The notes below the pieces were generated by a model that was not told the origin of the DNA, searched no databases, and saw only the letters and a list, made by a program, of their open reading frames with translations. A program made the position numbers and the translations under genes. Positions 33,015 through 50,191 of a stretch of 55,939 nt of DNA are shown piece after piece (the stretch's first letter is position 1; every line of letters starts with the position of its first letter). Source of the stretch: Chloroflexota bacterium (GTDB lineage: Bacteria > Chloroflexota > Anaerolineae > Anaerolineales > Villigracilaceae); the NCBI GenBank assembly GCA_021787595.1, contig JAJYLQ010000023.1:1-55939 (forward strand), in the 5' to 3' direction.

Positions 33015-33085
33015 ACTCTTGACCAGGGTCAACAAACTTGGTCAAAAGATGTTCAAATATCATCGAAAGGCAGAATGGATTATTC

Positions 33086-35515
33086 ATGAAAGATCAGGCA
33101 AAGATCGTGGTCATAGGCGGGGGGATCGTCGGCGCTCAGATCGCCTATCATCTTGCAAAGTTTGGGGAAAAGGATGTGGCGCTTATAGAAAAGGGGGAAA
33201 TTGCCAGCGGCGAATCATCGCACGCGGCGGGTTTAGTGACTCAATTTGCAACATCACAGACCATGTTGAAATTCCGCATGTACAGCATCGAACTGTACAG
33301 CGAACTTGGACTCTTCGATCACGTCGGAAGTTTGCGCGTCGCGTCGACGAAGGAATCGCTTTTGGATTTGGAGCGAGGCGTCAGCCGCGCCAAAGCATTG
33401 GGGCTGGATTGCGAAGTGATTGGTCCCGATGAAGCGGTGAAACACATGCCGCAGATCACGAACAAAAATCTGTACGGCGCGATCTATCTTCCGCGCGATG
33501 GACAACTTGATCCGTATACCACCACAACCAGCATGGTCAAGTTTGCAAAAGATTTGGGCGTGACCGTTTATACCAACACGCGCGTGACCGGAATCAAATT
33601 ATCGGCGGAGGGAGAAGTCGAAGAGGTGGTGACCGATAAAGGGGCGATCCGATGCGAGATCGTTGTCAACGCGGCAGGCATGTGGGCGCCGCGCGTCGCG
33701 GCAATGGCGGGTCTGCATTTCCCGACGACTCCGGTGGATCATCAACATATCGCATTGAAAGCCGTGCCGGGTCATGAGTTCAATTCAAAGACGCCGTGCT
33801 TGCGCGATCCTGAAAATTTGGTTTACATGCGGCAGGAGCAAGGCGGGCTGGTGATCGGCGGTTATGAACCGAATCCGTTGGCGCGTTGGATTGACGGCGT
33901 GCCGTGGGAACATGGCAGCACAACACTGCCCGCGGAAATGGATCGCTTCGAGCAATTGCTGGAAGGTGCGATTCGACGTTTGCCGTTTTTGGATCAAGCC
34001 GGAATCATCACGTTGGTTTGTCATCCCGGCGCGTACACGCCCGATTGCCAACCGATTCTCGGACCAATGGCAGGTGTGCGCGGCATGTGGATGGCGGCAG
34101 GATTCTCGCTCAACGGTTATGGCGGCGCGGGCGGCGTTGGTAAATTGATGGCGGAATGGATCATCGGCGGCGAGCCGACGATGGATGTGTATCCATACAA
34201 AGCCACGCGCTTTGGCAATTATTATGACGACCCGCAATACGCCTGCGAGCGAACGCGCGAGAGCGTGAAATATTATTATCGCTTGCGCTTCCCGAATGAT
34301 GAATTTGAATGGGCGCGCCCGCATCGCATTAGTCCGGTCTATCATCGCGAACTGGAATTGGGCGCGGTGTTTGGCGAGAAGTTTGGTTGGGAACGCGTCA
34401 ATTATTACAACCCCGACAAGCCCTCGCGGCGCATGGGCGAAGACCAGCGCAATTGGGGCGGATGGATCAAGCCGCCGTATTTCGAGCGGCTGCGAAAAGA
34501 ACATATCGCCACGCGTGAACGCGTCTGTCTTTATGATCTGACTCCGTTCAGCAAAATCGAAGTAACGGGCGCGGGCGCGTTGCCATTATTGAATCGCGTC
34601 GCCGATAGCGAAATGGACAAGCCAATTGGCTCGGCAACATATTGTCAGTTCTGCAATCCCAACGGCGGAGTCGAAGCCGATGTCACGGTGACGCGGCTTG
34701 GAAAAGATTGCTTCTGGGTTATCACAGGTGGAGCATTCATCGGCAATGATCGCTCGTGGCTTGAAATGCACATGGACGAAAACAATGGCGAAGTTAATAT
34801 CCGTGACATCAGCGAAGAGTGGGCTTGTCTTCCGTTGTGGGGCCCATGTGCGCGCGAGGTTTTACAAAAGATCACGAAGGATGATGTATCGAATCAAGCG
34901 CATCCATATTTGATGACGAAGCAAATTGATATCAACGGCGCGAGGGTGTACGCACAACGCGTCAGTTACGCAGGCGAACTCGGCTGGGAACTTTATGTTC
35001 CTTACAATCGTGCTACGCTGATCTGGGATATGCTGCTTGAAGCCGGAAAAGAATTCGGCATTGAGGTTGGCGGATATAAAGTGTTGGATGCGCTGCGACT
35101 CGAAAAAGGTTATCGCTATTACACCGCGGATGTGACTCAGCTCGAAACTCCGTATGAGGCCGGGCTGGGTTTCTGCGTCCAGCTTGATAAAGGCGATTTC
35201 ATTGGCCGAGATGCACTCGTCAAACAAAAGCAGGATGGACTGAAACGGAAGTTATGCACGCTGGTTGTGGACGGCGATGAGTTCACGCAAATCTATGGAG
35301 GGGAAGCGGTTTATTGGGATGGTGAAGTCATCTCGCGCGTCCGAAGCGGCGGATGGGGATATACGGTCAAGAAAAATATTTTGTACGCGTATCTTCCGAT
35401 TGAACTTGCCAAAGTCGGCAACCGCTTCGAAGCGGAATTGATCGAGGGACGTCAAATGGTTGAAGTTACCGTAACTGTTTTGTTTGATCCGAAAGGCGAG
35501 CGTTTGCGCTCATGA
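33086..35515 (+). CDS. FAD-dependent demethylase with GcvT domain, paralogue 2
   Basis: An 809-residue enzyme of the same architecture as the product of 28708-31143: DAO-type FAD domain (KIVVIGGGIVGAQIAYHL, SSHAAGLVTQF) then GcvT-like domain (VCLYDLTPFSKIEVTGAGALPLLNRV, VSYAGELGWELYVPYN, DKGDFIGRDALV). The two differ throughout, so they are old paralogues that may act on successive N-methyl substrates such as dimethylglycine and sarcosine. I use ATG 33086, with GAAAGG at 33065-33070; the longer frame from 33038 adds 16 unlike residues. It follows the DeoR gene by 71 bases in the same transcript. Confidence 0.9.
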   Translation: MKDQAKIVVIGGGIVGAQIAYHLAKFGEKDVALIEKGEIASGESSHAAGLVTQFATSQTMLKFRMYSIELYSELGLFDHVGSLRVASTKESLLDLERGVSRAKALGLDCEVIGPDEAVKHMPQITNKNLYGAIYLPRDGQLDPYTTTTSMVKFAKDLGVTVYTNTRVTGIKLSAEGEVEEVVTDKGAIRCEIVVNAAGMWAPRVAAMAGLHFPTTPVDHQHIALKAVPGHEFNSKTPCLRDPENLVYMRQEQGGLVIGGYEPNPLARWIDGVPWEHGSTTLPAEMDRFEQLLEGAIRRLPFLDQAGIITLVCHPGAYTPDCQPILGPMAGVRGMWMAAGFSLNGYGGAGGVGKLMAEWIIGGEPTMDVYPYKATRFGNYYDDPQYACERTRESVKYYYRLRFPNDEFEWARPHRISPVYHRELELGAVFGEKFGWERVNYYNPDKPSRRMGEDQRNWGGWIKPPYFERLRKEHIATRERVCLYDLTPFSKIEVTGAGALPLLNRVADSEMDKPIGSATYCQFCNPNGGVEADVTVTRLGKDCFWVITGGAFIGNDRSWLEMHMDENNGEVNIRDISEEWACLPLWGPCAREVLQKITKDDVSNQAHPYLMTKQIDINGARVYAQRVSYAGELGWELYVPYNRATLIWDMLLEAGKEFGIEVGGYKVLDALRLEKGYRYYTADVTQLETPYEAGLGFCVQLDKGDFIGRDALVKQKQDGLKRKLCTLVVDGDEFTQIYGGEAVYWDGEVISRVRSGGWGYTVKKNILYAYLPIELAKVGNRFEAELIEGRQMVEVTVTVLFDPKGERLRS

Positions 35516-35519
35516 AGCA

Positions 35520-35602
35520 AATGGTAATTGGTAAGCGGTAATTACCATTTACCAATTACTACTCATCAACAATCAAACTATCGAACTACCCAACTATCAA
35601 AC
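35520..35602. repeat. Low-complexity inverted and direct word repeats
   Basis: AATGGTAATTGGTAAGCGG and its complement TAATTACCATTTACCAATTAC form an inverted stretch (35520-35560), followed by direct repeats of AACTATC (35576-35603). It fills the gap before the PfkB gene and leaves no clear ribosome site. Confidence 0.55.
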
Positions 35603-35603
35603 T

Positions 35604-36563
35604 ATGAACCCTCCCGCTTACGTTGGCTTTGGAATGCTCACCCCGGTAGCGATCATGGTGGTGAATCAATTGCCCGAACATAACACTGGTGCGATTGTCA
35701 AAGAAGTGAACGAGTTCATCTTCGATGACGCCGCGATCATCGCTTGCTTATTGCGTCAATGGAATGTACCGACCGCGATGATCGGAACCGCGGTTGGTGA
35801 TGATTTGCGCGGACACAATCTCGCGGATCAACTCAAAGAATGGGGGGTACAAAGTCAGGTGCGTTTCTCCAAAGAATTCAAGACACCGCTCGAAGTGGAC
35901 GTCTCCGATGAGACCGGCGCGCGCACTTATTTTTGGCAGCGCCCCGTGGATGTGTTAAACACGCTCGACACCGCCGATCTTTCCTATCTGGAACAAGCGC
36001 GCCTGCTGTACGTGGATTGGTACGACGGCAATCATATTCTCCGCGCAATGGATGAAGCCGCGCGCTTGAAGATTCCCATTTTTCTGAACATGGAATATGC
36101 TCATGCCGATCCGGAATTGCTGGCTCGTTATGCGGGCCGCGCCGCGATATGTCAGGCTGTCACCGACGTCGCGCAAGTGGACGCGACCGACCCGCTGGAG
36201 GTCGCGCTAAAGTTGCGAAACGCGGGCGTCGAAACGGCATTGGTCACGTTGGCTGGTGAGGGCAGTCTTGTGCTTCACGAAGATGAAATCTTGCGCGTAC
36301 GCGCTCCGCAGGTAACGGCAGTTGATGGCTGCGGCGCGGGAGCAACGTATTCAGCAGGTTTCATTTATGGCTGGCTGCATGGCTGGAGGATCGAAGAGTC
36401 AGCGCGATTTGCGACGGCGGCGGCTTCGCTCAAGGTCATGCGGGCGGGGCTGCAAATGTTCCCGGTGGAAGAAATCATGAAGACTGCTGCCGGCCTTGAG
36501 GTAAAATCATCCATCTTATCAATGGAGAGAGAGTCACTTGCCAACCGTTCACGCAAGGGATGA
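35604..36563 (+). CDS. PfkB-family sugar kinase homologue lacking catalytic residues
   Basis: A 319-residue ribokinase-fold protein: N-terminal strand AYVGFGMLTPVAIMVVNQLP, a substrate-lid region, the adenine-side ALVTLAGEGSLVLHED, and the C-terminal signature region DGCGAGATYSAGF. In active PfkB kinases the signature is DTxGAGDxF with the catalytic Asp; here residue 247 is Ala, followed by Thr. The N-terminal GG motif is also missing (EFIFDDAAIIACLL). It may bind a sugar or nucleoside without phosphorylating it, or use another residue. It lies between the second FAD/GcvT demethylase and the corrinoid genes. Confidence 0.75.
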   Translation: MNPPAYVGFGMLTPVAIMVVNQLPEHNTGAIVKEVNEFIFDDAAIIACLLRQWNVPTAMIGTAVGDDLRGHNLADQLKEWGVQSQVRFSKEFKTPLEVDVSDETGARTYFWQRPVDVLNTLDTADLSYLEQARLLYVDWYDGNHILRAMDEAARLKIPIFLNMEYAHADPELLARYAGRAAICQAVTDVAQVDATDPLEVALKLRNAGVETALVTLAGEGSLVLHEDEILRVRAPQVTAVDGCGAGATYSAGFIYGWLHGWRIEESARFATAAASLKVMRAGLQMFPVEEIMKTAAGLEVKSSILSMERESLANRSRKG

Positions 36564-36573
36564 ATTCATTGGA

Positions 36574-36662
36574 TGTCGTTGCGAGGAGCGGCAGAGCCGC
36601 GACGAAGCAATCTCCCTCACAAATTGGGAGACTGATTCGGCAGAACGCCATCGCAGCGACGT
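36574..36662. repeat. TGTCGTTGCGAGGAG-type interspersed repeat
   Basis: TGTCGTTGCGAGGAGCGG, then CGACGAAGCAATCTCC, and a CTCACAAATTGGGAG hairpin at its tip. The related unit at 52942-53084 begins TGTCCTTGCGAGG and ends CCTCGCAATGACA. It lies in the gap before the corrinoid protein gene. Confidence 0.7.
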
Positions 36663-36731
36663 GATAGTGTATATACCTGAGACAATTCAAGATAATCAGA
36701 GCAGTTCATTTTATTTGATCATAGGAGTTTC

Positions 36732-37385
36732 ATGAGCGAAGAGCTAAGGAAGAAAATGGCGCAAAGCATCATTGACGGCGACGTTGACACGGCGGTTGCG
36801 CTTGCGAAAGAATCCATTGCCACCGGCATGGAGCCAATGGATGCCATCTCGAATGGATTTGTCGCAGGCGTAAATGAAGTTGGCGATGCGTTTGGGCGCG
36901 GCGAAATGTTCCTGCCGGAATTGGTGATGGCCGGCGAAGCAATGAAGGCTGCGGTTGCGACGTTGGATCCCGAACTGCGAAAGCGCGGCACGGAACGCCG
37001 AAAACTTGGCAAAGTTGTGATTGCAACGGTCGAAGGCGATATTCACGAGATCGGCAAGACGCTTGTGACCATCATGATGAGTTCTTCCGGTTTCGAGGTC
37101 TTTGATCTGGGCGTGGATTGCCCGGCGGAAAAAATTATCGGCAAGGCGCTTGAAATCAATGCGGATATTATCGCGATGAGCGCTTTGCTGACGACGACGA
37201 TGATCCGTCAAAAAGAAGTGATTGATGAGTTGGAAAAAGAAGGCTTGCGCGGCAAGTTCAAAGTGATGGTAGGTGGCGCGCCGATCACGCGCGATTGGGT
37301 CAAATACATTGGCGCAGACGGATATTCCGAAGATGCCGTCGGCGCGGTGGTTGTCGCCAAGCAGCTTGTGGGAGCTGTTGATTAA
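36732..37385 (+). CDS. Corrinoid (B12-binding) methyl carrier protein
   Basis: A 217-residue protein of the MttC/MtbC class: helical cap domain (residues 1-90; VNEVGDAFGRGEMFLPELVMAGEAM) and a Rossmann-type cobalamin domain with the lower-ligand motif D103-x-H105-x-x-G108 (EGDIHEIGKTLV), SALLTTT and VGGAPITRDW. It carries the methyl group between a substrate methyltransferase and an acceptor methyltransferase. The ribosome site TAGGAGT precedes the start. It heads a run of four methyl-transfer genes ending at the terminator at 42191. Confidence 0.94.
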   Translation: MSEELRKKMAQSIIDGDVDTAVALAKESIATGMEPMDAISNGFVAGVNEVGDAFGRGEMFLPELVMAGEAMKAAVATLDPELRKRGTERRKLGKVVIATVEGDIHEIGKTLVTIMMSSSGFEVFDLGVDCPAEKIIGKALEINADIIAMSALLTTTMIRQKEVIDELEKEGLRGKFKVMVGGAPITRDWVKYIGADGYSEDAVGAVVVAKQLVGAVD

Positions 37386-37448
37386 GTGATTAAATCATTC
37401 AGCGAAGTAAGTCTTCTGTTTCTAATGGAAAAACATTTATCTAAATAC

Positions 37449-37533
37449 AAGGTACACGAAGGTCACAAAGGGAAAAAGCCTGTAAGGTCTCGTCTCGTTT
37501 CTTCCCTTGTGTACCTTGTGCCCTTTGTGTTTG
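37449..37533. repeat. GGTACACGAAGG...CCTTGTGCCCTTTGTG inverted repeat
   Basis: AAGGTACACGAAGGTCACAAAGGG and the complementary CCCTTGTGTACCTTGTGCCC arms (37449-37472, 37503-37533) surround a short loop rich in TCTCGTCTCG. It lies between the corrinoid protein and activator genes, in the 199-base gap. Confidence 0.65.
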
Positions 37534-37584
37534 AGTCTTTTGTTGCCGGGAGATTCGATGAAATAAACGCAACGGAGATTCTTG

Positions 37585-39609
37585 ATGGCCGATAAGCCTA
37601 CCGTTATTTTGCAGCCCTCAGGGCGGCGCGGCGAATCGGCGGATTGGAAAAATCTGCGGGCGATTGCCCGCGAACTTGGCGTGGATATCGAATCAATCTG
37701 TGCGGAAAATGCCACGTGCGGCAAATGCAAAGTTGTGGTTGAAGAGGGAGCGTTCGAGCGCTACGGCATCACATCCAAACGCGAAAACCTGAGTCCAGTC
37801 ACGCCGGAAGAAGCCGAATTTTTCCGCCGCCGTCCAAAGATGATGGCCGCGCATCATTGGGAAGCTGGGCAGGTCCGGCTGGCGTGTCAGGCCAGGGTGC
37901 GCGGCGACGTGCTGATCAGCGTCCCTGAAGAAAGCCAGGTCAATAGACAAGTCGTCCGCAAGGCCGCGACGCAGCGCGCCTTCGAGATCAAGCCGTCCAT
38001 TCGGAAATATCTCGTTGAGCTGATGCCGCCCACCGTCTCGAACCCGAAGGCGGATTGGGAACGCCTGCAAAACGGAATCAGCACCTCGATGGGGTTGATC
38101 CGATCCGGCGAAGCGAATTTTCCCAGAGCAAAAGATTTGACGATTGATTACGAATGCCTGCGGACTCTTTCAGCGACACTGCGCGAATCGAAATGGCGCG
38201 TGACGGTTTCGATCTGGCAGGACAAGGAAGTGCTGCGCGTCGAACCCGGATACGTGGAAGGACTTTACGGCGCGGCCGTGGACATCGGTTCGACCACCAT
38301 CGCGCTTTATCTGTGCGATCTCGAAAGCGGAGAAATCCTCGCCGCGGAATCGGAAATGAATCCGCAAATCGTTTACGGCGAAGATGTGATGTCGCGCATT
38401 CAATACACCATCGTGAACGAAGATGGATTGCAAAAATTGCACGATGCGGTCATCGGCGCGTTGAATAAATTATTACAACAGGCGGCAAAAGCGGCAAATA
38501 TTTCCACGGATGATATTCTCGAAATAGTGATTGCGGGCAATACGACGATGCATCACCTGTTCCTGAATCTACCGACGAAACAACTGGGATTGGCTCCGTA
38601 TGTCCCGGCGATCAATCATGACATTGACATCAAAGCGCGTGAACTTGGATTGAAGATCAATCGCGCCGCGAACATTCACGCGCTTCCAACCATTTCCGGT
38701 TTTATCGGCGCGGACACAACCGCGGTCTTGCTTGCCGAAGAACCGCACAGGCAGGAAGAGAATTGGCTCATCATTGACATCGGCACGAATGCGGAATTGG
38801 TGCTGGGCAATAAAGAAAAATTGATCTGTACGTCCACGCCGACCGGCCCCGCGCTGGAAGGTGCGCATGTTGAATATGGGATGCGCGCCGCGCCGGGCGC
38901 CGTCGAACGCGTCGAGATTGACGAGAAGACTCTGGAGCCGCGCTATAAAATCATCGGCGAAGAAAATTGGAACACGGGCAAAGCCAAAGGCATTTGTGGT
39001 TCCGCCATTATTGATGCGGTGGCTGAATTGTTCCGCGTTGGAATCGTGGATGCGCGCGGAAGATTTGTCAGCGAAAGTTCATCGAACCGAATTCGTAAAG
39101 GCGAGGCCGGGATGGAATATGTTATTGCGTGGGCGGACGAAACAAGTATTCAGCGCGAGATTCCAATCACGCAGCAGGACGTGCGCCAGATTCAACTTGC
39201 GAAGGGCGCGTTGTTCGTCGCGGCGCGCACGTTGTTGAATCAATTCAATCTCCAAACACCGGACAAGATTCTTTTGGCGGGCGGCTTTGGAACGTATCTC
39301 GACAAGACCAAGGCGATGCTGATCGGAATGATTCCGGATTGCCCGCTGGAAAATGTTTATGTTGTCGGCAACTCCGCCGGAGACGGCGCGCGCATCGCGC
39401 TGTTGAATTGGGAACGCCGCGAAGAGGCCGCGAACGTCGCGGCGCGCGTCCACCGCTATGAACTCCCGGCTGATCCGAATTTCCAACAGCAATTCATGCT
39501 GGCGATGAATTTTCCGCACATGAGCGAACCATTTCCACACATCGCACATTTGATTCCGAATCGCAAGATTGATCCGCTTGCGGAAAAATTTTCGGGAGGG
39601 ACGAAGTGA
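37585..39609 (+). CDS. RACE-type ATP-dependent reductive activator of corrinoid proteins
   Basis: A 674-residue protein. The N-terminus holds a [2Fe-2S] ferredoxin domain with C39, C45, C48 and C101. The middle is a linker, and the C-terminal 450 residues are an ASKHA-type ATPase (AVDIGSTTIALYLCD, GNTTMHHLFLNLP, IDIGTNAELVLG, AGGFGTYLD). RACE proteins such as RamA-like and MtgA-partner activators reduce inactive Co(II) corrinoid to Co(I) using ATP. GGAG eight bases before ATG 37585 fixes the start. The 3' end overlaps the methyltransferase gene by 4 bases (GTGA). Confidence 0.92.
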   Translation: MADKPTVILQPSGRRGESADWKNLRAIARELGVDIESICAENATCGKCKVVVEEGAFERYGITSKRENLSPVTPEEAEFFRRRPKMMAAHHWEAGQVRLACQARVRGDVLISVPEESQVNRQVVRKAATQRAFEIKPSIRKYLVELMPPTVSNPKADWERLQNGISTSMGLIRSGEANFPRAKDLTIDYECLRTLSATLRESKWRVTVSIWQDKEVLRVEPGYVEGLYGAAVDIGSTTIALYLCDLESGEILAAESEMNPQIVYGEDVMSRIQYTIVNEDGLQKLHDAVIGALNKLLQQAAKAANISTDDILEIVIAGNTTMHHLFLNLPTKQLGLAPYVPAINHDIDIKARELGLKINRAANIHALPTISGFIGADTTAVLLAEEPHRQEENWLIIDIGTNAELVLGNKEKLICTSTPTGPALEGAHVEYGMRAAPGAVERVEIDEKTLEPRYKIIGEENWNTGKAKGICGSAIIDAVAELFRVGIVDARGRFVSESSSNRIRKGEAGMEYVIAWADETSIQREIPITQQDVRQIQLAKGALFVAARTLLNQFNLQTPDKILLAGGFGTYLDKTKAMLIGMIPDCPLENVYVVGNSAGDGARIALLNWERREEAANVAARVHRYELPADPNFQQQFMLAMNFPHMSEPFPHIAHLIPNRKIDPLAEKFSGGTK

Positions 39610-40499
39610 ACAAGTTTGTCGAACGATTGAAAGCCGGGGAGGTTTTGGTTGCCGACGGCGCAACCGGGACGAATCTTCAAAAAGTTGGCCTGGTCGGCGG
39701 CATCCACACCGAAGATTGGGTCTTCGATGAGCCGAAAAAAATTCTCGATCTCGAAAAAGCGTTCGTTGCCGCAGGCTCGGACATCCTCCTGACCTGCACA
39801 TTCGGCGGGACGCGTCCGCGCATGCAGGGCGCGAAACACGGCGACCAGGTTTATGAGATCAACAAACGCGCTGTGGAACTGGCGCGTGAGGCCGCCTCGG
39901 CGCGAGACGACGTGCTGGTCGCTGGTTCGATGGGCCCGATCGGCAAGTTGTTGAAGCCGTACGGCCCGCTCACGCACGAAGAAGCGCGCGATGCGTTCGC
40001 CGAACAAGCCAAAGCGTTGGCCGAAGGCGGCGTGGACTTTCTTCTCTTCGAGACGCATTTTGCTTTGAATGAAGTGGATGCTGGTCTCGAAGGTGCGCGT
40101 TCCGTCACTGATTTGCCCATCGTTGTTTCATTTAGTTACGACCGCGGCACGCGTACGATGATGGGAGTCAAGCCAACGGAGGTGATCAAGAAATATGAGC
40201 CGATGGGCGTGACGATGATCGGCGCGAATTGCGGCACAACGTTGGAAAATATGGAAACCATCCTGAAAGAATATGGTTCGGTGGATCCGGGCTTTCCGCT
40301 GTGGGCAAAACCGAACGCGGGCATTCCGCGACTGGTCAATGGCGAAACCCTTTATGATGTGACTCCCGAACAAATGGCAGACTTCGCGAAGAAGTATGTT
40401 TCGCTCGGCGCGCGCGTCGTTGGCGGGTGCTGCGGCTCGACGCCTGAGCACGTTGCCGCGATTGTAAAGACAGTGAAGAGGAAGAAAGACGAAAGATGA
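39606..40499 (+). CDS. Homocysteine S-methyltransferase-domain protein
   Basis: A 297-residue stand-alone pfam02574-type domain (VADGATGTNLQKVGL; GSDILLTCTFGGTRPRM). Zinc ligands C209 (GANCGTT), C275 and C276 (GGCCGSTPEH) are all present, as in the homocysteine module of MetH. In this setting, coupled to a corrinoid protein and a RACE activator, it most likely moves methyl from the corrinoid to homocysteine or another thiol. The neighbouring corrinoid gene (36732) would supply the B12 module. No pterin-binding (MtrH/MetH folate) methyltransferase is seen nearby. Confidence 0.88.
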   Translation: MNKFVERLKAGEVLVADGATGTNLQKVGLVGGIHTEDWVFDEPKKILDLEKAFVAAGSDILLTCTFGGTRPRMQGAKHGDQVYEINKRAVELAREAASARDDVLVAGSMGPIGKLLKPYGPLTHEEARDAFAEQAKALAEGGVDFLLFETHFALNEVDAGLEGARSVTDLPIVVSFSYDRGTRTMMGVKPTEVIKKYEPMGVTMIGANCGTTLENMETILKEYGSVDPGFPLWAKPNAGIPRLVNGETLYDVTPEQMADFAKKYVSLGARVVGGCCGSTPEHVAAIVKTVKRKKDER

Positions 40500-40520
40500 A
40501 CGTTGTGGCGCGGTGGCTCG

Positions 40521-40562
40521 CGCTGAGCGGAGTGGCGCTTTTTGCGCCACGTAGTCGAAGCG
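40521..40562. repeat. REP-like palindrome with nested TGGCGC hairpin
   Basis: CGCTGAGCGGAG and GTAGTCGAAGCGC surround TGGCGC TTTTT GCGCCA (40533-40549). It is the same layout as 50266-50307. Confidence 0.7.
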
Positions 40563-40598
40563 CTGCTTGCTGAAAGCGTTGGCTTTGTCCGCTAATGC

Positions 40599-40664
40599 TG
40601 TGGGACAATTTGGCAAATTGTCCCTACGTTCGCCGCTCCCGATACCGCATTGGCGAAGGTATTG
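40599..40664. repeat. 82-bp palindromic MITE-like repeat, copy 3 (5' truncated)
   Basis: Begins at TGTGGGACAATTTG and ends TGGCGAAGGTATTG; the left CAATACCTTCGCC end is missing or degraded. It lies 50 bases before the start of the MttB-family gene. Confidence 0.8.
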
Positions 40665-40715
40665 ATTGCGGATATCTGATTGAATTGACCGGTGTTTCAA
40701 CAACAGGAGAGAGAA

Positions 40716-42164
40716 ATGGCTTTTGCAACTTTACTTACTGATGAACAAGTGAAACGCACGCACGAAGCCTCGCTGGAGATTCTTGAAAACGTCGGTTTAC
40801 TGGTACGCAACGAAAAGGCGCGGTCCATTTTCTTCAAACACGGGGCAAAGGTGGACCCTGAATCCCATATCGTCAAACTGCCGCGTGCGGTAACCGAAAA
40901 ATATATCAAAATGCTCCAGCCGACGTTCACGTTCCGCGGACGCGACCCGAAGTTCGACAAAACCATCCCGAAGGACAGCCCGGTCATCGTTACGGGGAGT
41001 TCTGCACCGGATATCATCGATCCGCTCACGGGTCAGGAAAGACGCGCCCGTTCCGACGATATCGCGCGCATCGCGCATCTCATCAATGAGTTGCCTGCGT
41101 ATGATATGTTCTCGATTTCCACATTAGCCGACGATGCGCCTCCCGGACAATTCACGCTGGCGCGTTTGTATCCGGCCACCAAGTATTGCGTCAAACCGAT
41201 TCGCAATACGACGAAGGACATGGACGACATCCAAGCGATCATGAAATTGTTGTACGCCGTCGCGGGAGGCAAAGAGGCGTACTTCGAGCGCCCGTTCGTG
41301 ACGCATCATTATTGCCCGGTGGTTTCGCCGCTGACGATGGACCAGCTTTCGACAGAAGCGATCATCTACTTCAGCGAGCTGGGACTTCCGGTTTATCCGA
41401 CCATCGTGCCGAATGCGGGACTCACTTCGCCGATGTCCATGGCGGGGACGCTGGCGCAGGGCAACGCGGAATTTTTAGCGGCCGCGGTTTTGATGCAGAT
41501 GGTCCGCGAAGGCACGCAGACGATCTACGCGTCGCTGCCAACGGTGGCTGACATGCGCAGCGGCGCGTACGCGTCCGGCGGAATCGAATGCGGCATGCTG
41601 CACATGGCGTTCGCACAGCTGGCGCGTTTTTATAATGTGCCCTGCGGCGGATACGTTGGCCTCACCAATTCGAAGATCAATGACGCGCAGATGGGTTACG
41701 AAACGGGCATGTCTGTCGTCGAAGGGATTTTGGGCGGAATGGATATGTTCAACATGGGCGGCTTATTGGACGCGCTTAAGGCCTTCAACTTTGCGAAAGC
41801 CGTGATTGACGATGAGATCGCGCAGATGCTCAAACGCGTGAAGCGCGGCATTGCCTTCAGCGAAGAGGAGCTTGCCGTGGATGTGATTGCAAAGGTCAAG
41901 CCGGGCGGCTCATTTCTGATGGAACCGCACACGGTGAAGCGCATGAAGAACGAAGCGTTGCTCACAAAATTGGCCGACCGCGACGCGCGCCCGATCTGGG
42001 AGAAGAAAGGCTCGCTCGATATCGAAGCGCACGCAAAGTTGAAGGTGGATGAAATCCTGTCGCACAATACCCAATCGCTTCTATCTGACGAGCAGGAAGC
42101 GCGCGTCCGAGCTGAGTTCAAGGATTTGATTCCCGGAATGCTGGAAATCCTGCAGCCGCAGTAA
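40716..42164 (+). CDS. MttB-family (trimethylamine:corrinoid) methyltransferase, no pyrrolysine
   Basis: A 482-residue TIM-barrel methyltransferase: LTDEQVKRTHEASLEILENVGLLV at the start, TSPMSMAGTLAQGNAEFLAAAVLMQMVREG in the barrel, and MGYETGMSVVEGILGGMDMFNMGGLLD. The reading frame has no TAG and is complete, so it belongs to the non-pyrrolysine MttB superfamily, whose characterised members act on glycine betaine, proline betaine or carnitine. It would pass a methyl to the corrinoid protein at 36732. I use ATG 40716 after AGGAGAGAG. An intrinsic terminator follows at 42191. Confidence 0.92.
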   Translation: MAFATLLTDEQVKRTHEASLEILENVGLLVRNEKARSIFFKHGAKVDPESHIVKLPRAVTEKYIKMLQPTFTFRGRDPKFDKTIPKDSPVIVTGSSAPDIIDPLTGQERRARSDDIARIAHLINELPAYDMFSISTLADDAPPGQFTLARLYPATKYCVKPIRNTTKDMDDIQAIMKLLYAVAGGKEAYFERPFVTHHYCPVVSPLTMDQLSTEAIIYFSELGLPVYPTIVPNAGLTSPMSMAGTLAQGNAEFLAAAVLMQMVREGTQTIYASLPTVADMRSGAYASGGIECGMLHMAFAQLARFYNVPCGGYVGLTNSKINDAQMGYETGMSVVEGILGGMDMFNMGGLLDALKAFNFAKAVIDDEIAQMLKRVKRGIAFSEEELAVDVIAKVKPGGSFLMEPHTVKRMKNEALLTKLADRDARPIWEKKGSLDIEAHAKLKVDEILSHNTQSLLSDEQEARVRAEFKDLIPGMLEILQPQ

Positions 42165-43551: not shown

Positions 43552-43902
43552 ATGGTTAATCAAACACTGGTTCAGGAAATATCCCAGCTCGAGGCAGACT
43601 TTTGTTTCGCTTTGTCCGATCCGACACGGCTTTTGATCCTTTATGCATTGGCGGATGAGCCGCGCAATGTGACCGAACTGACCAACGATTTGAGTGTCAT
43701 TCAACCCACAATCTCCCGGCATTTGAAAGTGTTGCGCGAGCGCGGGCTGGTTTATACGGTCCGGCAGGGGACAACGGTCACTTATCACTTGTCGGATAAC
43801 CGGCTTATCCAGGCGCTGGATCTGTTGCGGGCAGTCATGCGCGAACGGCTGGCCTACAAAGCCAGCCTGATGGAAGAAACCAAGGCAAGCACGAACGCCT
43901 GA
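43552..43902 (+). CDS. ArsR-family transcriptional regulator
   Basis: A 116-residue winged-HTH protein: CFALSDPTRLLILYALADEPRNVTELTNDLSVIQPTISRHLKVLRERGLVYTVRQGTTVTYHLSD. It begins with a cysteine (C18) in the helix preceding the HTH but lacks the typical ELCVCDL metal-binding motif; here that stretch reads ARNVTEL, so it may sense sulfide or persulfide through other Cys, or a different signal. Only one cysteine is present. It opens the operon of redox and transporter genes and is probably a local switch for it. Confidence 0.88.
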   Translation: MVNQTLVQEISQLEADFCFALSDPTRLLILYALADEPRNVTELTNDLSVIQPTISRHLKVLRERGLVYTVRQGTTVTYHLSDNRLIQALDLLRAVMRERLAYKASLMEETKASTNA

Positions 43903-43938: not shown

Positions 43939-44802
43939 ATGCAACGTAAGAAACTGTTTGTAATGCTTGTGGCCGCCGGCGCGTTGATCGTGATCGTCAG
44001 CGGCATCGCACTGGCGTTGACACAGCCTGCTCACGCGCAGTGCGGATCACAGGCCTCGTCCTGCAAGAACTGCCACGAAGTGCAAGCACAGAAGCCCGTC
44101 AATAATGATGGGACTCCCTGGCACACTTCGCATGCCTTCGGCGATTTTTGCTATATTTGCCACGGCGGCAACCAGCAGGCCACGGATAAAACTGCGGCGC
44201 ATACCGGCATGGTGAACCCGCTTTCGGATATCAAAGCCTCGTGCGCGCAGTGCCATCCCAGCGATCTGCAGGCCCGCGCTCAGGTTTACGCGGATAAGTT
44301 GGGCGTCCAGCTTGGATCGAGTGGCTCTGCCGCATCGAGCAGTGGAACTCCAGCGGCTTCCGCGACGACTTCCGCCGCGCCGGCTGCGAGCAATACGTCT
44401 GCAACGCCGCAGCCTGCCGCGGCTGTGCCGCAGGTCACATTGGCTCCCAACGACCCGAACCTGGTCAACTATGTTCAGCGATACAACGAGAACGTGCTGC
44501 ATCAATATCCTGCCAATTGGGGCAACGTCATCCTGCTGGTCATGATCGGCGCGATGGTGATCGGCGGCGGCGCGCTGGTTGTCAGCCGCGAGGGTTTGAT
44601 CAAAGTTTCGTTCAAGGAAACAAAGCCGGTCGAAGGCGAGTATCCCGCGGATGTTGTGGACATGGTTCCGGGCATCGCGAAGCTAAAGCCAAATGCGCGC
44701 AAGTCACTGCGCCGCCTGCTCGAAAGACCGGAGGCGACCGCCGAAGTGCTAACGTCCATTGATAAGCTGACCGACGATAAACCTTCGAATCAGAAAGAGT
44801 AA
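43939..44802 (+). CDS. Membrane-anchored triheme cytochrome c
   Basis: A 287-residue exported protein: signal peptide (MLVAAGALIVIVSGIALALTQPAHA), three CXXCH haem sites (CKNCH, CYICH, CAQCH) in the first 110 residues, then a Ser/Ala/Pro linker and one membrane helix (NVILLVMIGAMVIGGGALVV), with a cytoplasmic C-terminal tail (about 60 residues). It could carry electrons between quinol or periplasmic partners and the molybdoenzyme encoded downstream. Strong ribosome site GAGGAGG just before ATG 43939. Confidence 0.85.
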   Translation: MQRKKLFVMLVAAGALIVIVSGIALALTQPAHAQCGSQASSCKNCHEVQAQKPVNNDGTPWHTSHAFGDFCYICHGGNQQATDKTAAHTGMVNPLSDIKASCAQCHPSDLQARAQVYADKLGVQLGSSGSAASSSGTPAASATTSAAPAASNTSATPQPAAAVPQVTLAPNDPNLVNYVQRYNENVLHQYPANWGNVILLVMIGAMVIGGGALVVSREGLIKVSFKETKPVEGEYPADVVDMVPGIAKLKPNARKSLRRLLERPEATAEVLTSIDKLTDDKPSNQKE

Positions 44803-44839: not shown

Positions 44840-45385
44840 ATGAACTGGATCATCAAACAAATCAGCAAAGAGACATGGTCGCCTTATGTGGCCGGAATCC
44901 TGCTTGGCATCGTAGGTATCCTGGCCGTGCTTCTGTCCAATAGTCTGCTGGGCGCTTCTGGCGCATTTGAGAACATTGCTGGAATGATCGGCAAAGCAGT
45001 TGCGCCCAAAGCCTTCGATATTTTGTATTTCAATTTTGTGATGCCGCCCGGAATCAGCTGGAGTGTCATCCTGCTGATCGGCGTATTCTTCGGCGGCATG
45101 ATCGGCGCCGCGACCAGCAAAACGTTGAAGTGGGGCAGGAAAGATGCGGCCAACAGTGATGTTCAGTGGAAGAGCATCTTTGGCCCGCAAACGTGGAAAC
45201 GCTGGGTTCTGGGATTCGTCGGCGCGATCATTCTGGAATATGCGGCAGGCATCGCGGGCGGATGCACCAGCGGCCTGGCAATTTCAGGAGGCATGTTGCT
45301 GGTTCCGGCGGCCTTCCTCTTCATCGCCGGGATGTTTGCGTCCGGCATCGTGACCGCGTGGATCATTTATCGCAACCGCTATTAA
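44840..45385 (+). CDS. YeeE/YedE-family sulfur-compound transporter, half 1
   Basis: A 181-residue protein with about five membrane helices and the family segment IAGGCTSGLAISGG, in which the Cys is one of the conserved thiosulfate-relay cysteines of YeeE/YedE (TsuA) proteins. In TsuA the fold consists of two similar halves in one chain; here each half is a separate gene, the other being 45399-45944. They follow one another with a 13-base gap. Substrate is probably a sulfur or selenium oxyanion, by family; the choice is inference. Confidence 0.85.
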   Translation: MNWIIKQISKETWSPYVAGILLGIVGILAVLLSNSLLGASGAFENIAGMIGKAVAPKAFDILYFNFVMPPGISWSVILLIGVFFGGMIGAATSKTLKWGRKDAANSDVQWKSIFGPQTWKRWVLGFVGAIILEYAAGIAGGCTSGLAISGGMLLVPAAFLFIAGMFASGIVTAWIIYRNRY

Positions 45386-45398
45386 CAAGGAGGATGGA

Positions 45399-45944
45399 GT
45401 GAACTACGTCATTGCTTTGTTTCTCGGCGCGTTCTTCGGCTTCTCGTTGAACAAAGCCGGTTTGACCAAATACAACAAGATCGTCAATCAATTCCGCTTC
45501 ACCGATATGGCGGTCTTGAAATTCATGATGACGGCGCTGGTCGTTGCCATGATCGGACTCTACGGCCTGCGCGGTCTGGGACTCATCGCGTTCCCGTCCG
45601 TGCCGAACACGTACATCGTTGGCAATCTCGTGGGCGGGCTGATCTTCGGGGTCGGCATGGCCCTGACCGGATACTGACCGGGCACCTGTGTCGCCGGGTC
45701 CGGCGAAGGAAAATTAGATTATCTCATCCCTGGTTTGCTTGGCTTCTTGACCGGTGCAGTCATTTACGGCTTGACGTACCAGCAGGTATTTCCGCAAATC
45801 TCGAAACTGGCAAACTTTGGCGGCATCGTGATCCCTGAGGCGTGGAACATCAATCCGTATTTGACGGTCCTCGCATTCTCACTTATGGCTCTGCTCCTGT
45901 TCTATTTCATTGACCGCATGGGCATGCAGAGAAAAGAGAAGTAA
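45399..45944 (+). CDS. YeeE/YedE-family transporter, half 2, candidate selenoprotein
   Basis: Read through the in-frame TGA at 45675-45677, this is a 181-residue membrane protein with about five helices: GMALTGY-U-PGTCVAGSGEGKLDYLIPGLLGFL. Homologous YeeE/YedE halves have Cys at this position (GY-C-PGTC), so residue 93 is read as selenocysteine. A hairpin with the loop GGTC follows at 45691-45706. C97 of PGTC is kept. If not read through, both pieces would be useless: 92 residues, and a 90-residue tail with no ribosome site. The start is GTG 45399 after AAGGAGG. Function: uptake of a sulfur or selenium compound together with half 1. Confidence 0.8.
45691..45706 (+). promoter_or_regulatory. 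SECIS-like hairpin downstream of the in-frame TGA
   Basis: TCGCCG (45691-45696) and CGGCGA (45701-45706) form a perfect 6-bp stem with the tetraloop GGTC. The GGU of the loop begins 20 nt after the UGA, close to the spacing in E. coli fdhF, and GGU in the apical loop is the SelB contact there. It lies inside the reading frame, as bacterial SECIS elements must. Confidence 0.7.
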
Positions 45945-45996: not shown

Positions 45997-48162
45997 ATGA
46001 CGAATCTTATATCGAGGCGCGACTTTCTCAAACTGGGCGGCGCGGCGGCTGGAGCGCTTGCAATCGGTGAATTCATTCCGCCGCTCGCGGCAAAAGCTGC
46101 GCGCGAGGCAGGCACTCTCGATGCCAACGGTGACGGCTACATTCCCAGCATGTGCGAAATGTGTGTCTGGCGCTGCGGCCTGCTGGCCAAAGTCGAAGGC
46201 GGACGCGTGGTCAAGCTCGAAGGCAATCCCGATCATCCGCATTCCAAAGGCAAGTTATGCCCGCGCGGTCAGGCTGGGTTGATGAATACGTACGACCCGG
46301 ACCGTGTGCTGACTCCACTTGTCAGGGTTGGAAAACGCGGCGAGGGCCTCTTCCGCAAAGCGTCGTGGGACGAAGCGCTGGGGATCGTCGCCAAGAACAT
46401 GCTCGACATCAAACAGAAGTATGGTCCCGAGGCGATGGTCTTTTCGTCCACGCACAATCTGTCGCAGCCTTTATTTGAAAACCTGCTCCAGGCGTTTGGC
46501 TCGCCGAATTACGGCACACAACGTTCGTTGTGTTTCAATGCCATGACGATTACGAACATAATGACGTACGGTACGGAAGAGCCAAACCGCGATTACAGCC
46601 AGGTCAAATATATTATTTTGACGGGACGAAATTTGGCTGAAGCCATCTCGAACTCCGAGACCCAGGATTTGATCCACGCGATTGACCGCGGTGTGAAGGT
46701 TGTTTATCTCGACCCGCGCTTTACGAAGACCGCGGCGAAAGCGTCCGAATGGCTGCCAATCAGGCCCGGTACTGATTTGGCTTTTCATCTCGCCATGCTT
46801 AACGTCATCATCGGCGAGAGACTATACAATCAAAATTTCGTTTCGCAATACACAGTTGGTTTTGACGAAGTTGCCAACAGTGTCAGCCAATATCCGCCTG
46901 AATGGGCCGCAAAGATTACCGAAATTCCGGCAGATACGATCCGACGCATTGCACGGGAATTTGCGGCGGCCGCGCCCTACGCGCTGGCCCATAACGGATG
47001 GCGCACGTCGAACTTTGTCAACTCATTCCAGACCGAACGCGCCATTGCCATTCTCAACGCGTTGATGGGGAATTGGGGAACGACCATGTTCCCGGCTGGA
47101 GCGGAAGGCGCAGGTTTGGGCGCGCCAAAGCAGCCAGCTTATCCGCGTGTCTCTGCGCTGCGGTTGGACGGCGTGCCGTGGAAATATCCATTCGTGCCGC
47201 TTCAATATGGAGTTATCCAGCAGATGCGCGACTCCGTCCTGGCTGAAGATCCCTACGCGGCGCACGGATGGTTCATCTCGCGCCAGAACCCGGCCATGTC
47301 CATCCCGGATCGCAAGAAGACATTGCAGACTCTTTCCAAGCTGGATTTCATTGTCACGATGGACATCATCATGAATGACACAGCCTGGTTCTCGGATGTT
47401 GTCCTGCCGGAAGCGTCGTACCTCGAACGTTACGATCCATTGAATGTGGTTGGCAACCGCGCGTTCCTGCGCCAGCCGGTGATCGAACCGCAAGGCGAAG
47501 CCAAGTCCGCGCTGTGGATTTACAAACAGCTTGGCGGGCTTCTTGGCTTGGGCGACTATTTCCAATACAAGGATGATGAAGATTACATCCAGCAGGAACT
47601 TGCGCCGTTGGGCGTTTCGCTCGATCAAATCCGTAAGCAAGGTTATGCAGAACTGCCTGAGAGCAGCTCCAACATTTACAGATGGAGCACGCCCAGCGGG
47701 AAGGTCGAGCTAAGTTCAGCCACGCTGGATAAAGCTGGTTTTGATGGCGTCCCGAAATGGGAAGAGCCGCCCGCGCCCAAATCCGGCCAGTTCTATTTGC
47801 TGACCGGCAAAGGTGCGCGCCAGACTCAGTTCGGCACGCAGAACAATCAATTACTCCATAAATATGACGATGAACCGGGTTTGTGGATGAACGCCAAAGC
47901 CGCGGCATCACAAGGCTTGGACGATGGTGATATGGTCTCGGTGACAAGCGACGTTGGTCAGATTTATATCAAGCTGATCGCCACGCAAGCCATCCGCCCC
48001 GATTGCGTTTACATGCAGCCCGGCTTCGGTCATCTCTCGAAGGGACTGACCACAGCGTACGGCCTGGGTTCGAGCGACTCGGATCTGCACGTTACGTTTA
48101 CGGATCCCATTAGCGGCGGTCAGGCCCTCAGTCAGACATTCGTAACGGTAAAGAAGGCTTGA
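45997..48162 (+). CDS. Molybdopterin oxidoreductase, PsrA/PhsA-like catalytic subunit
   Basis: A 721-residue member of the DMSO-reductase superfamily. A Tat signal (ISRRDFLKLGGAAAGALAIG) directs export. The [4Fe-4S] motif is C53-x2-C56-x3-C60-x27-C88. C179 in RSLCFNAMT is the likely Mo ligand, an ordinary Cys. Later segments (VLPEASYLERYDPLN, VWMNAKAA, QPGFGHLS) match polysulfide, thiosulfate and tetrathionate reductases. With subunits B and C downstream it forms a Psr-type complex on the outer face of the membrane. The exact sulfur or selenium substrate, and direction, are not decidable from sequence. Confidence 0.9.
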   Translation: MTNLISRRDFLKLGGAAAGALAIGEFIPPLAAKAAREAGTLDANGDGYIPSMCEMCVWRCGLLAKVEGGRVVKLEGNPDHPHSKGKLCPRGQAGLMNTYDPDRVLTPLVRVGKRGEGLFRKASWDEALGIVAKNMLDIKQKYGPEAMVFSSTHNLSQPLFENLLQAFGSPNYGTQRSLCFNAMTITNIMTYGTEEPNRDYSQVKYIILTGRNLAEAISNSETQDLIHAIDRGVKVVYLDPRFTKTAAKASEWLPIRPGTDLAFHLAMLNVIIGERLYNQNFVSQYTVGFDEVANSVSQYPPEWAAKITEIPADTIRRIAREFAAAAPYALAHNGWRTSNFVNSFQTERAIAILNALMGNWGTTMFPAGAEGAGLGAPKQPAYPRVSALRLDGVPWKYPFVPLQYGVIQQMRDSVLAEDPYAAHGWFISRQNPAMSIPDRKKTLQTLSKLDFIVTMDIIMNDTAWFSDVVLPEASYLERYDPLNVVGNRAFLRQPVIEPQGEAKSALWIYKQLGGLLGLGDYFQYKDDEDYIQQELAPLGVSLDQIRKQGYAELPESSSNIYRWSTPSGKVELSSATLDKAGFDGVPKWEEPPAPKSGQFYLLTGKGARQTQFGTQNNQLLHKYDDEPGLWMNAKAAASQGLDDGDMVSVTSDVGQIYIKLIATQAIRPDCVYMQPGFGHLSKGLTTAYGLGSSDSDLHVTFTDPISGGQALSQTFVTVKKA

Positions 48163-48202
48163 CCTCACCCCCATCCCCTCTCCTAAAAGAGAGGGGCGAG
48201 GA
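48163..48202. repeat. GAGAGG-family palindrome between subunits A and B
   Basis: CCTCACCCCCATCCCC, TCTCCTAAAAGAGAGG, GGCGAGG. The right arm supplies GAGGA (48198-48202), seven bases before the ATG of subunit B. Confidence 0.8.
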
Positions 48203-48209
48203 AAAGATT

Positions 48210-49010
48210 ATGACTGACATTAAGAATATCAAACACAAGGCTTTTCTTTATGATGCCACACGCTGCATTGATTGCCGCGCCTGCATGATCGCCTGCAGTG
48301 TCGAAAACAAGATTCCGATGGACAAGACCCGCATCTGGGTCGCCGGGGTTGGACTTAAAGGTGAATACCCGAATCTGGATCGCGCCTCGATGGTCTACCA
48401 TTGCATGCACTGCGAGGAACCCGACTGCATGTCGGCCTGCCCGGTGGGCGCTTACAGCAAACGTGAAGACGGCCCGGTACTTTACAACAAGGATGTGTGC
48501 ATCGGCTGCCGCTACTGCATGAACGCCTGCCCATTTGGTGTGCCGCATTTTGATTACAACAAGGGCCTGATTGACGGCGCATTCATTGACAAATGCACGA
48601 TGTGCACCCAGCGAATTGATGTGGGCCTGGAACCGGCCTGCGTCGCAACCTGTCCGACCGAAGCGCTGGTCTTCGGTGAACGCGCCGATCTGATCAAGGA
48701 AGCTCACGCGCGTATCGCCGCACATCCTGATCGCTACATTGATCATGTTTACGGCGAGACGGAAAACGGCGGAACATCCTATTTGATCCTTTCACATGTT
48801 CCATTCAGCGAACTTGGACTGCCTCCGCTTACATCCAAGCCGGTCAAGGAAGTCAGTGAAGCGGTGATGGGGCTTACGATTCCGTTCGCGCTTACCTGGG
48901 GCGCCGTCCTTACCGGTGTGACAGTCGGCGTGCATGAATACAACAAGAGAAAAGAAAACGCCGCAAAACAAACCGTGGAAGCCGAAAAGGAATCGGAGGA
49001 TGCCAAATGA
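48210..49010 (+). CDS. Four-cluster ferredoxin subunit, PsrB-like
   Basis: A 266-residue electron-transfer subunit. Four Cys groups (CIDCRACMIAC, CMHCEEPDCMSACPVGA, CIGCRYCMNACPFG, CTMCTQRIDVG...CVATCPTEA) bind four [4Fe-4S] clusters. Near the C-terminus a hydrophobic helix (GLTIPFALTWGAVLTGVTVGV) can anchor it in the membrane, which is not standard for PsrB. The start at 48210 is favoured over the long frame from 48159, which reads through the palindromic repeat. Its stop overlaps the NrfD-like gene by 4 bases. Confidence 0.9.
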   Translation: MTDIKNIKHKAFLYDATRCIDCRACMIACSVENKIPMDKTRIWVAGVGLKGEYPNLDRASMVYHCMHCEEPDCMSACPVGAYSKREDGPVLYNKDVCIGCRYCMNACPFGVPHFDYNKGLIDGAFIDKCTMCTQRIDVGLEPACVATCPTEALVFGERADLIKEAHARIAAHPDRYIDHVYGETENGGTSYLILSHVPFSELGLPPLTSKPVKEVSEAVMGLTIPFALTWGAVLTGVTVGVHEYNKRKENAAKQTVEAEKESEDAK

Positions 49011-50191
49011 AAATGCAAATCAACATCAACCCGCGTCTCCGCCTAAGCCCACTCGTCATGGTTTTATTGGCATTGATGGGAATCGCTTTCGTGGTTGCGA
49101 TGATCCGTTATATCAATGGCATTGGCGCGATCAGCAATTTGAGTTATTCCTATCCGTGGGGCTTCTGGATCAGCTTCGATTTGTTCACCGGCGTCGCCAT
49201 CGGCAGCGGCGCGTTCGTCATGGCTGCGGCGGTGTACATCTTCGAACTGAAGGAATTTCGGCCACTGCTCAAGCCGTCCGTTCTAACGGGTTTTCTCGGC
49301 TACACCATGGTGGTCATTGCCCTGCTGGTTGACCTTGGTCATCCCGAACGAATCTGGTACATGATGATCCATTGGAATCACACCTCGGTCTTGTTGGAGA
49401 TCGGCATCTGTGTGATGAGTTATCTCACGGTATTAGCGATTGAATTCTCACCGGTCTTCTTCGAGGGCATCCAATGGAAAAAGACGGCGCACTTCATCCA
49501 TAAGTTCATCATGCCGTTTGTGATCCTTGGCGTTGTGCTTTCGACATTGCACCAATCGTCGCTTGGCTCGCTGTTGCTAATCCAGCCCGCGAAACTTTAT
49601 CCGCTGTGGTGGACGCCGATCCTGCCAGTGTTATTCTTCATCTCGGCAGTTTCGATTGGCTTGGCGATGATTATCTTCGAATCAACGGTTAGCGCCCGTT
49701 ATTTTCATCGCGGTTTGGAAAGTCATCTCTTGGAAAAATTGGGTAGAGCTGTTCCGATTGTCTTAGCGATCTATCTGATCGTCCGCTTCACCCAATTGAC
49801 TTTGGCAAACGATCTGCAATATCTCTTCAACAGCGGATTGATGAGCATCCTGTTCTGGGCGGAGATCATCCTCGGTTCGGTCATCCCGTTGGTTTTATTC
49901 TCGATCAAGAAGATTCGCCAAAGCCCCAACGGTTTGCTGGTCAGCGCGATCGTTCTGCTGATCGGCATGATCCTGGATCGCTTCGATGTAAGTTGGTTCG
50001 CTGTTCGTCATCCCGATCCATTGACGTTCATTCCAAGCTTGATGCAATTCAACGCACATTACATTCCATCGTTGCCGGAACTTTCCATTTCAATCGGCAT
50101 CTTCTCGGCAGGCATCCTGGCGTTTGGTTTGATCGCGAAATACTTGCCGCTCTTTGAAGAGGAAGACGGTCATCACACAGCATCACACTAA
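49007..50191 (+). CDS. NrfD/HybB-like membrane subunit (PsrC type)
   Basis: A 394-residue quinone-interacting subunit with about ten membrane helices. SYPWGFWISFDLFTGVAIGSGAFVMA is the family signature seen in HybB and NrfD proteins. It exchanges electrons between menaquinone and the PsrB-like subunit. It overlaps subunit B by ATGA. An intrinsic terminator closes this transcript at 50194-50225, separating it from the cytochrome b group. Confidence 0.92.
   Translation: MKMQININPRLRLSPLVMVLLALMGIAFVVAMIRYINGIGAISNLSYSYPWGFWISFDLFTGVAIGSGAFVMAAAVYIFELKEFRPLLKPSVLTGFLGYTMVVIALLVDLGHPERIWYMMIHWNHTSVLLEIGICVMSYLTVLAIEFSPVFFEGIQWKKTAHFIHKFIMPFVILGVVLSTLHQSSLGSLLLIQPAKLYPLWWTPILPVLFFISAVSIGLAMIIFESTVSARYFHRGLESHLLEKLGRAVPIVLAIYLIVRFTQLTLANDLQYLFNSGLMSILFWAEIILGSVIPLVLFSIKKIRQSPNGLLVSAIVLLIGMILDRFDVSWFAVRHPDPLTFIPSLMQFNAHYIPSLPELSISIGIFSAGILAFGLIAKYLPLFEEEDGHHTASH

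Follow-up and report, generated by a model that had tools for sequence, protein, structure and literature searches.

A predicted selenocysteine-containing half of a split YeeE/YedE transporter in Chloroflexota and its exchange with cysteine forms

The window, by which we mean the whole stretch of 55,939 nucleotides analysed here, carries on its forward strand an operon in which a pmpB-like gene (45399-45944) with an in-frame TGA is placed between a pmpA-like gene (44840-45385) and the genes of a putative molybdoenzyme complex. The operon begins with an ArsR-family repressor (43552-43902; HTH_5 in Pfam, HTH_metalloreg), which is followed by a c-type cytochrome-like protein (43939-44802), in which three CxxCH motifs and one hydrophobic segment were seen by eye and which gave no Pfam match, and then by the two transporter-like genes, pmpA-like first. 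Downstream lie a Tat-signal molybdopterin oxidoreductase of the PhsA/PsrA-like type (45997-48162), a 4Fe-4S electron-transfer subunit resembling HybA/HmcB (48159-49010) and an NrfD/HybB-like membrane subunit (49007-50191), all three assigned with Pfam and NCBIfam models; a cytochrome b and a c3-like cytochrome come next. In a PDB sequence search, the best-scoring solved structure for the molybdoenzyme was 2vpw (450.9 bits), an entry for a thiosulfate reductase from T. thermophilus that is also called polysulfide reductase. Against the PhsA model the molybdoenzyme scores 597 bits, under the cut-off of 694, and Fe-S and NrfD domains are also encoded beside it. Further upstream, a separate C1-type cluster (32211-42164) encodes a DeoR regulator, a DAO/glycine-cleavage-T fusion, a pfkB kinase, a B12-binding protein, a RACo-type activator, a homocysteine methyltransferase and an MttB-like methyltransferase, which suggests the use of methylated compounds.

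The only internal stop of the pmpB-like gene is the TGA at 45675-45677, corresponding to residue 93 of 181, and the frame closes with TAA. The read-through product matches the YeeE/YedE family PF04143 (E = 1e-19; 71.7 bits against a gathering score of 27) over profile positions 10-149 of 310, whereas the pmpA-like product, with a cysteine in the motif GGCTSG, covers positions 169-309 (51.3 bits). These are the only two PF04143 matches in the whole genome at E ≤ 0.01, and their complementary coverage indicates the two halves of one YeeE/YedE transporter, with the C-terminal half encoded first. In the PDB sequence alignment, residue 93, in the context GY-U-PGTC, falls on the column that Cys91 occupies in the thiosulfate transporter of S. 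thermophila (6leo; E = 5e-4; residues counted in the alignment), and the column of the third relay cysteine, Cys22, is occupied by Thr23. The original prediction, made from the sequence of the window, had proposed that a YeeE/YedE half-protein is interrupted by one TGA at the conserved cysteine of the family and then stays open to a normal end at 45944. The position of the TGA and the open frame behind it are borne out; as to the half-protein, it matches the N-terminal half and is encoded by a short gene of the PmpB kind, and is no fragment. An AlphaFold model of the N-terminal half has a pLDDT of 66.8, so that residue-level arguments cannot be drawn from it; its three best Foldseek matches in the PDB are YeeE entries, at E values of 0.2-0.6. 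The pmpA-like product gave no PDB match with phmmer.

Conservation of the TGA was examined in 59 distinct Chloroflexota relatives obtained by one search of genome contigs. By a count made by eye, 39 of them bear the label Anaerolineae, Brevefilum or a more specific Anaerolin- name, and 20 are labelled only Chloroflexi or Chloroflexota. At the Sec column, 34 relatives, all on other public assemblies, have the same TGA, and the remaining 25 have a cysteine codon (TGC or TGT) in the contexts CPGTC (18), CPGTA (6) and a diverged CAAP (1). An alignment with cysteine homologues had been proposed at the outset as a check. A further sample of 400 genomes from the phylum, possibly including some of those of the 59 relatives, contained 20 genomes with a match at E ≤ 1e-15; seven of these, the source genome included, have a close homologue (E < 1e-90), with one TGA in five cases and with cysteine in both of the TGA-less ones. 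Moreover, the codons 3′ of the TGA are constrained, with a median pN/pS of 0.30 over 595 pairs of Sec genes, a constraint somewhat weaker than that upstream of the TGA (0.17). A lone stop in an otherwise open frame, found in metagenome-derived assemblies, could also mean that the gene is decaying and that the TGA is a plain nonsense mutation or an error of sequencing. However, the recurrence of TGA at one codon in more than half of the relatives, the constraint behind it and a hairpin that tracks it (see below) refute this explanation, unless one error were common to all assemblies, and we give it practically no weight. Distant YeeE-like relatives were also observed in further genomes that share the genus, family or class (L097-L108 and L110-L112), with cysteine at the Sec column in the motifs GGFCPTT or GGFCPGT; when L097 and L100 were read further, their continuation resembled a rhodanese-type domain by eye.

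The genome encodes the functions needed for selenocysteine insertion. SelA (448 bits) and SelB (343 bits; cut-off 242) were found on contigs C54 and C32, a tRNA-Sec with the anticodon TCA (64.3 bits; cut-off 47), on which ARAGORN concurs, on C6, and SelD (347 bits), with one in-frame TGA within selD itself, on C35. A search for selA, selB, selC and selD had been suggested at the outset, with a genome devoid of selB or selC counting against selenocysteine; all four functions are present, SelB and tRNA-Sec among them. The alpha subunit of formate dehydrogenase (FdhA) on contig C61 (848 bits) also has one in-frame TGA, followed by a hairpin, GTCGCC-GGTCT-GGCGAC, much like that of the pmpB-like gene. 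A hairpin was seen as well after the likely TGA of selD (the C35 and C61 loci are listed as L079 and L082). Within the window, a sub-threshold tRNA-Sec match at 172-258 (45.8 bits against 47) presumably reflects another tRNA whose variable arm is long, for example tRNA-Ser or tRNA-Leu. Three in-frame TGA codons in one genome might suggest that UGA has been reassigned in this lineage, for instance to tryptophan or glycine. Yet the two other genes concerned, selD and fdhA, belong to known selenoprotein families, the site carries cysteine in all 25 relatives without TGA, and three genes of the same operon end in TGA, from which it follows that UGA is not generally reassigned; a reassignment is therefore hardly credible. 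Among the relatives, selB is found over the cut-off in 30 of the 34 TGA genomes, and in one more it is split into two pieces on two contigs; at E ≤ 1e-40 it is absent from the remaining three (2.9, 1.5 and 1.9 Mb, perhaps incomplete). Since 20 of the 25 cysteine genomes also have selB over the cut-off, its presence discriminates only weakly between the two groups.

A SECIS-like hairpin is located at 45691-45706, directly 3′ of the TGA. Its first base lies 14 nt past the TGA, and the UGA-to-loop gap is 19 nt; this start, the stem of six base pairs (TCGCCG/CGGCGA) and the apical loop GGTC agree with the perfect hairpin originally described. The bSECIS criteria given in section 5 of PMC13188914 (loop of 3-9 nt, stem of at least 4 bp, G in the first two loop positions, spacing of 16-37 nt and an energy of -7.5 kcal/mol or lower) were applied to the 24 nt that begin 9 nt after the Sec or Cys codon. 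They are passed by all 35 TGA genes, the one in the window included, by 2 of the 25 cysteine genes and by about 9% of random synonymous recodings. The corresponding Fisher value of 1e-14 overstates the independent evidence because the rows are related; the same relatedness applies to the comparison of hairpin energies between the two classes (Mann-Whitney 1.5e-10) and of their z-scores (4e-10). The apical loops of the TGA genes are GGT (16), GGTC (14), GGC (3) and CGGGA (2), and the stems adopt two main registers, each of which places GG at the tip.

At the level of single genes, a synonymous-recoding test of the hairpin energy yields p ≤ 0.05 in 12 of the 35 TGA genes and in none of the 25 cysteine genes, with p = 0.057 for the gene in the window. 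When 45 nt are folded, the SECIS-bearing structure (-12.1) is nearly tied with the minimum-free-energy alternative (-12.3); the alternative uses bases directly after the UGA, which a ribosome positioned at the UGA would be expected to cover. Covariation was counted in the GGT-type register, to which 21 of the 35 TGA genes belong, with 10 distinct segments among them; the 14 genes of the GGTC register did not enter this count. A compensatory change from C-G to U-A beside the loop occurs in three of the ten rows, and 95.7% of the cells are paired. However, pairing is still 92.9% when the 3′ partners are slid by -3, and of 500 shuffle controls 13 reached the covariation score and 411 as many doubly changed pairs, so that covariation taken by itself is modest. 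The two cysteine genes that pass the bSECIS criteria are informative. One of them, L070 (TGT), has a hairpin identical to that of the TGA gene L073, with which it shares 96% nucleotide identity over 490 nt; this is what would be expected if Sec and Cys had been exchanged recently and the element had stayed behind, and the hairpin of L070 is probably a fossil SECIS element. The other, L058, has a weaker hairpin (-8.5). An Rfam scan of 45600-45800 returned a single sRNA match on the hairpin (14.8 bits against a threshold of 39.1; E = 4.2), which was taken as chance. Altogether, the gene at 45399-45944 appears to be a selenoprotein gene, a prediction for which the comparative evidence is strong.

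Sec and Cys versions have been exchanged several times among related Chloroflexota. A maximum-likelihood tree was built from 60 proteins after masking of the Sec column; it requires eight Sec/Cys changes, at least five of which are forced by well-supported branches; with four further columns masked, the numbers are nine and at least four. These counts carry no direction of change. The residue at position -3 from Sec (45666-45668), whose codon lies upstream of the UGA and hence outside the hairpin, is Thr in 29 of the 35 Sec genes and Ser in 22 of the 25 Cys genes (source gene plus relatives; Fisher 4e-11 for Ser, with kinship ignored). In a tree-aware test, only three independent pairs lie on well-supported branches, 2.9 of the three agreeing on average (p = 0.25), and for this reason the co-change is regarded as a lead; Thr at -3 is a possible selenium-tuning residue. 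Cys97, the last residue of U-PGT-C, is present in all 35 Sec rows and in 18 of the 25 Cys rows. As an obligate partner of Sec it was rejected, since only one or two of four supported independent pairs differ.

The surroundings of the gene are largely shared by its relatives, and the arrangement is common to Sec and Cys loci. The C-terminal half was read by eye upstream in 58 of the 59 loci, the matched span being free of in-frame stops in all of them; GGCTSG was seen at 54 of these, the other four having displayed a different stretch. The cytochrome gene is present in 57 of 59 loci, and the molybdoenzyme downstream also in 57. At 48 loci the molybdoenzyme is followed by an Fe-S subunit, and at 40 the cytochrome is preceded by an ArsR gene of the same orientation. 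L056 is the only locus that lacks the C-terminal half and the cytochrome despite 2.4 kb of upstream sequence, and both molybdoenzyme misses as well as the other cytochrome miss are due to stretch ends. Given the complementary PF04143 halves and the linkage in nearly all relatives, the pmpA-like product would pair with the pmpB-like product.

Which compound such a pair would handle can be addressed mainly from its gene context. Relatives in PF04143 named YedE have been linked to selenium use (PMC5322559), and the pmpB-like product has a weak match to the corresponding model TIGR04112, which would fit a selenoprotein that transports selenium compounds, as has been suggested for YedE; Sec insertion might then gauge selenium and decide whether a product of 92 or of 181 aa is made. 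The match, however, reaches only 24.5 bits against a cut-off of 200, the sel genes found sit on other contigs, and the operon holds a polysulfide/thiosulfate-reductase-like complex that is kept by relatives with Sec or Cys alike. A role in selenium transport is accordingly rather improbable. The original prediction had suggested a transport relay based on selenium chemistry, perhaps for selenium or sulfur compounds; of these, the operon content points to sulfur as the substrate, and the pmpB-like product is best regarded as part of a predicted sulfur transporter. A somewhat stronger competitor, still unlikely in our judgement, is that the PmpAB-like pair is no transporter and instead serves the reductase complex in the membrane, as a redox or gating subunit. 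Such a role would suit the linkage that the relatives show with genes for the molybdoenzyme, the cytochrome and NrfD, and also the view that most known selenoproteins, and most prokaryotic ones, act in redox reactions (PMC9312934), whereas the precedent within the family is transport (PMC11073785 and PMC11582611).

Collectively, we are fairly confident of a reading in which the UGA at 45675 is decoded as selenocysteine by SelB and tRNA-Sec under the guidance of the hairpin just 3′ of it, the product pairs, as the PmpB-like half, with the PmpA-like half to make up a split YeeE/YedE transporter, and Sec93 acts as a relay residue. The N- and C-terminal halves would form a heterodimer, as proposed for PmpA/PmpB, and Sec93 would lie mid-membrane, where YeeE has Cys91, the second and middle one of its relay cysteines. 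Acting faster both as nucleophile and as leaving group, Sec93 could take up sulfane sulfur or thiosulfate through an Se-S bond on the extracytoplasmic face, close to the PsrA/PhsA-like reductase, and then hand it over inward, with Cys97 as a possible resolving thiol. The more specific proposal, that selenium is the central hand-over point of a transmembrane sulfur relay, with sulfane sulfur delivered by an extracytoplasmic polysulfide/thiosulfate reductase and with Cys97 and Thr at -3 tuned to selenium, is put forward tentatively, as a possibility somewhat less likely than not.

Selenocysteine in the YeeE/YedE family has already been catalogued (PMC13188914) and is thus not wholly new. Apart from PMC13188914 and PMC9312934, full-text searches of open-licence papers listed no title or abstract describing a Sec-containing YeeE/YedE protein; the two papers cited by PMC13188914 for the catalogued protein, WP_012471001.1, do not name YeeE/YedE in their main text, and none of the sought terms occurs in the main text of the deep-Sep paper (PMC12013277). 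According to PMC13188914, Sec in transporters has so far been a matter of predictions only. Relative to the literature found, what is new is that the predicted selenoprotein has the short PmpB form and the context GY-U-PGTC, that it occurs in this phylum and in this operon, and that its Sec/Cys histories require eight to nine changes on the best trees. A search of plasmids for relatives gave two distant records only. Standard gene calling would stop at the UGA, so that annotation of the family is probably incomplete. Its members are syntenic, come from mostly uncultured Chloroflexota and include Sec as well as Cys forms; together with the probable relic of a SECIS element and the Sec machinery of the genome, they make the value of selenium in a membrane relay testable. 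If the proposed reading is true, the Sec/Cys series constitutes a natural set for gauging the benefit of selenium to transport.

Among known systems, the YeeE/YedE selenoprotein WP_012471001.1 (PF04143), listed in the 2026 review PMC13188914 and in PMC9312934, is likewise predicted to contain Sec. It differs in its motif, given as GUxSG in PMC13188914, as against GY-U-PGTC, a comparison made by the listed motif only; S. thermophila YeeE has GGCASG at C91 and the PmpA-like half has GGCTSG, and the U of WP_012471001.1 could consequently lie at either C91 or C293. The putative selenium transporter YedE (TIGR04112) is a distant relation within the family. TsuA/YeeE of S. thermophila (6LEO/6LEP) and E. 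coli is similar in that U93 aligns with C91, the second of the three relay cysteines of S. thermophila YeeE (PMC11073785); the PDB title of 6LEP describes the C91A mutant as inactive. Unlike TsuA/YeeE, the present system is divided over two genes, has Thr in place of C22, so that the set of three relay cysteines is incomplete, and shows no TusA/YeeD-type Pfam match among the 17 window proteins scanned; its scores against the NCBIfam TsuA models are 35.1 bits (cut-off 400) and 25.4 bits (cut-off 645). The pair resembles PmpA/PmpB of Serratia and others, which also consist of two half-size genes with one conserved cysteine column each, C91 in PmpB and C293 in PmpA, and for which a heterodimer has been proposed (PMC11582611); the C293 column of the pmpA-like product was read from the GGCTSG motif and Pfam positions only. 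Compared to PmpA/PmpB, the system described here has a predicted Sec in place of the cysteine of PmpB, a product of 181 aa rather than about 130 aa, and an operon shared with a Psr/Phs-like complex.
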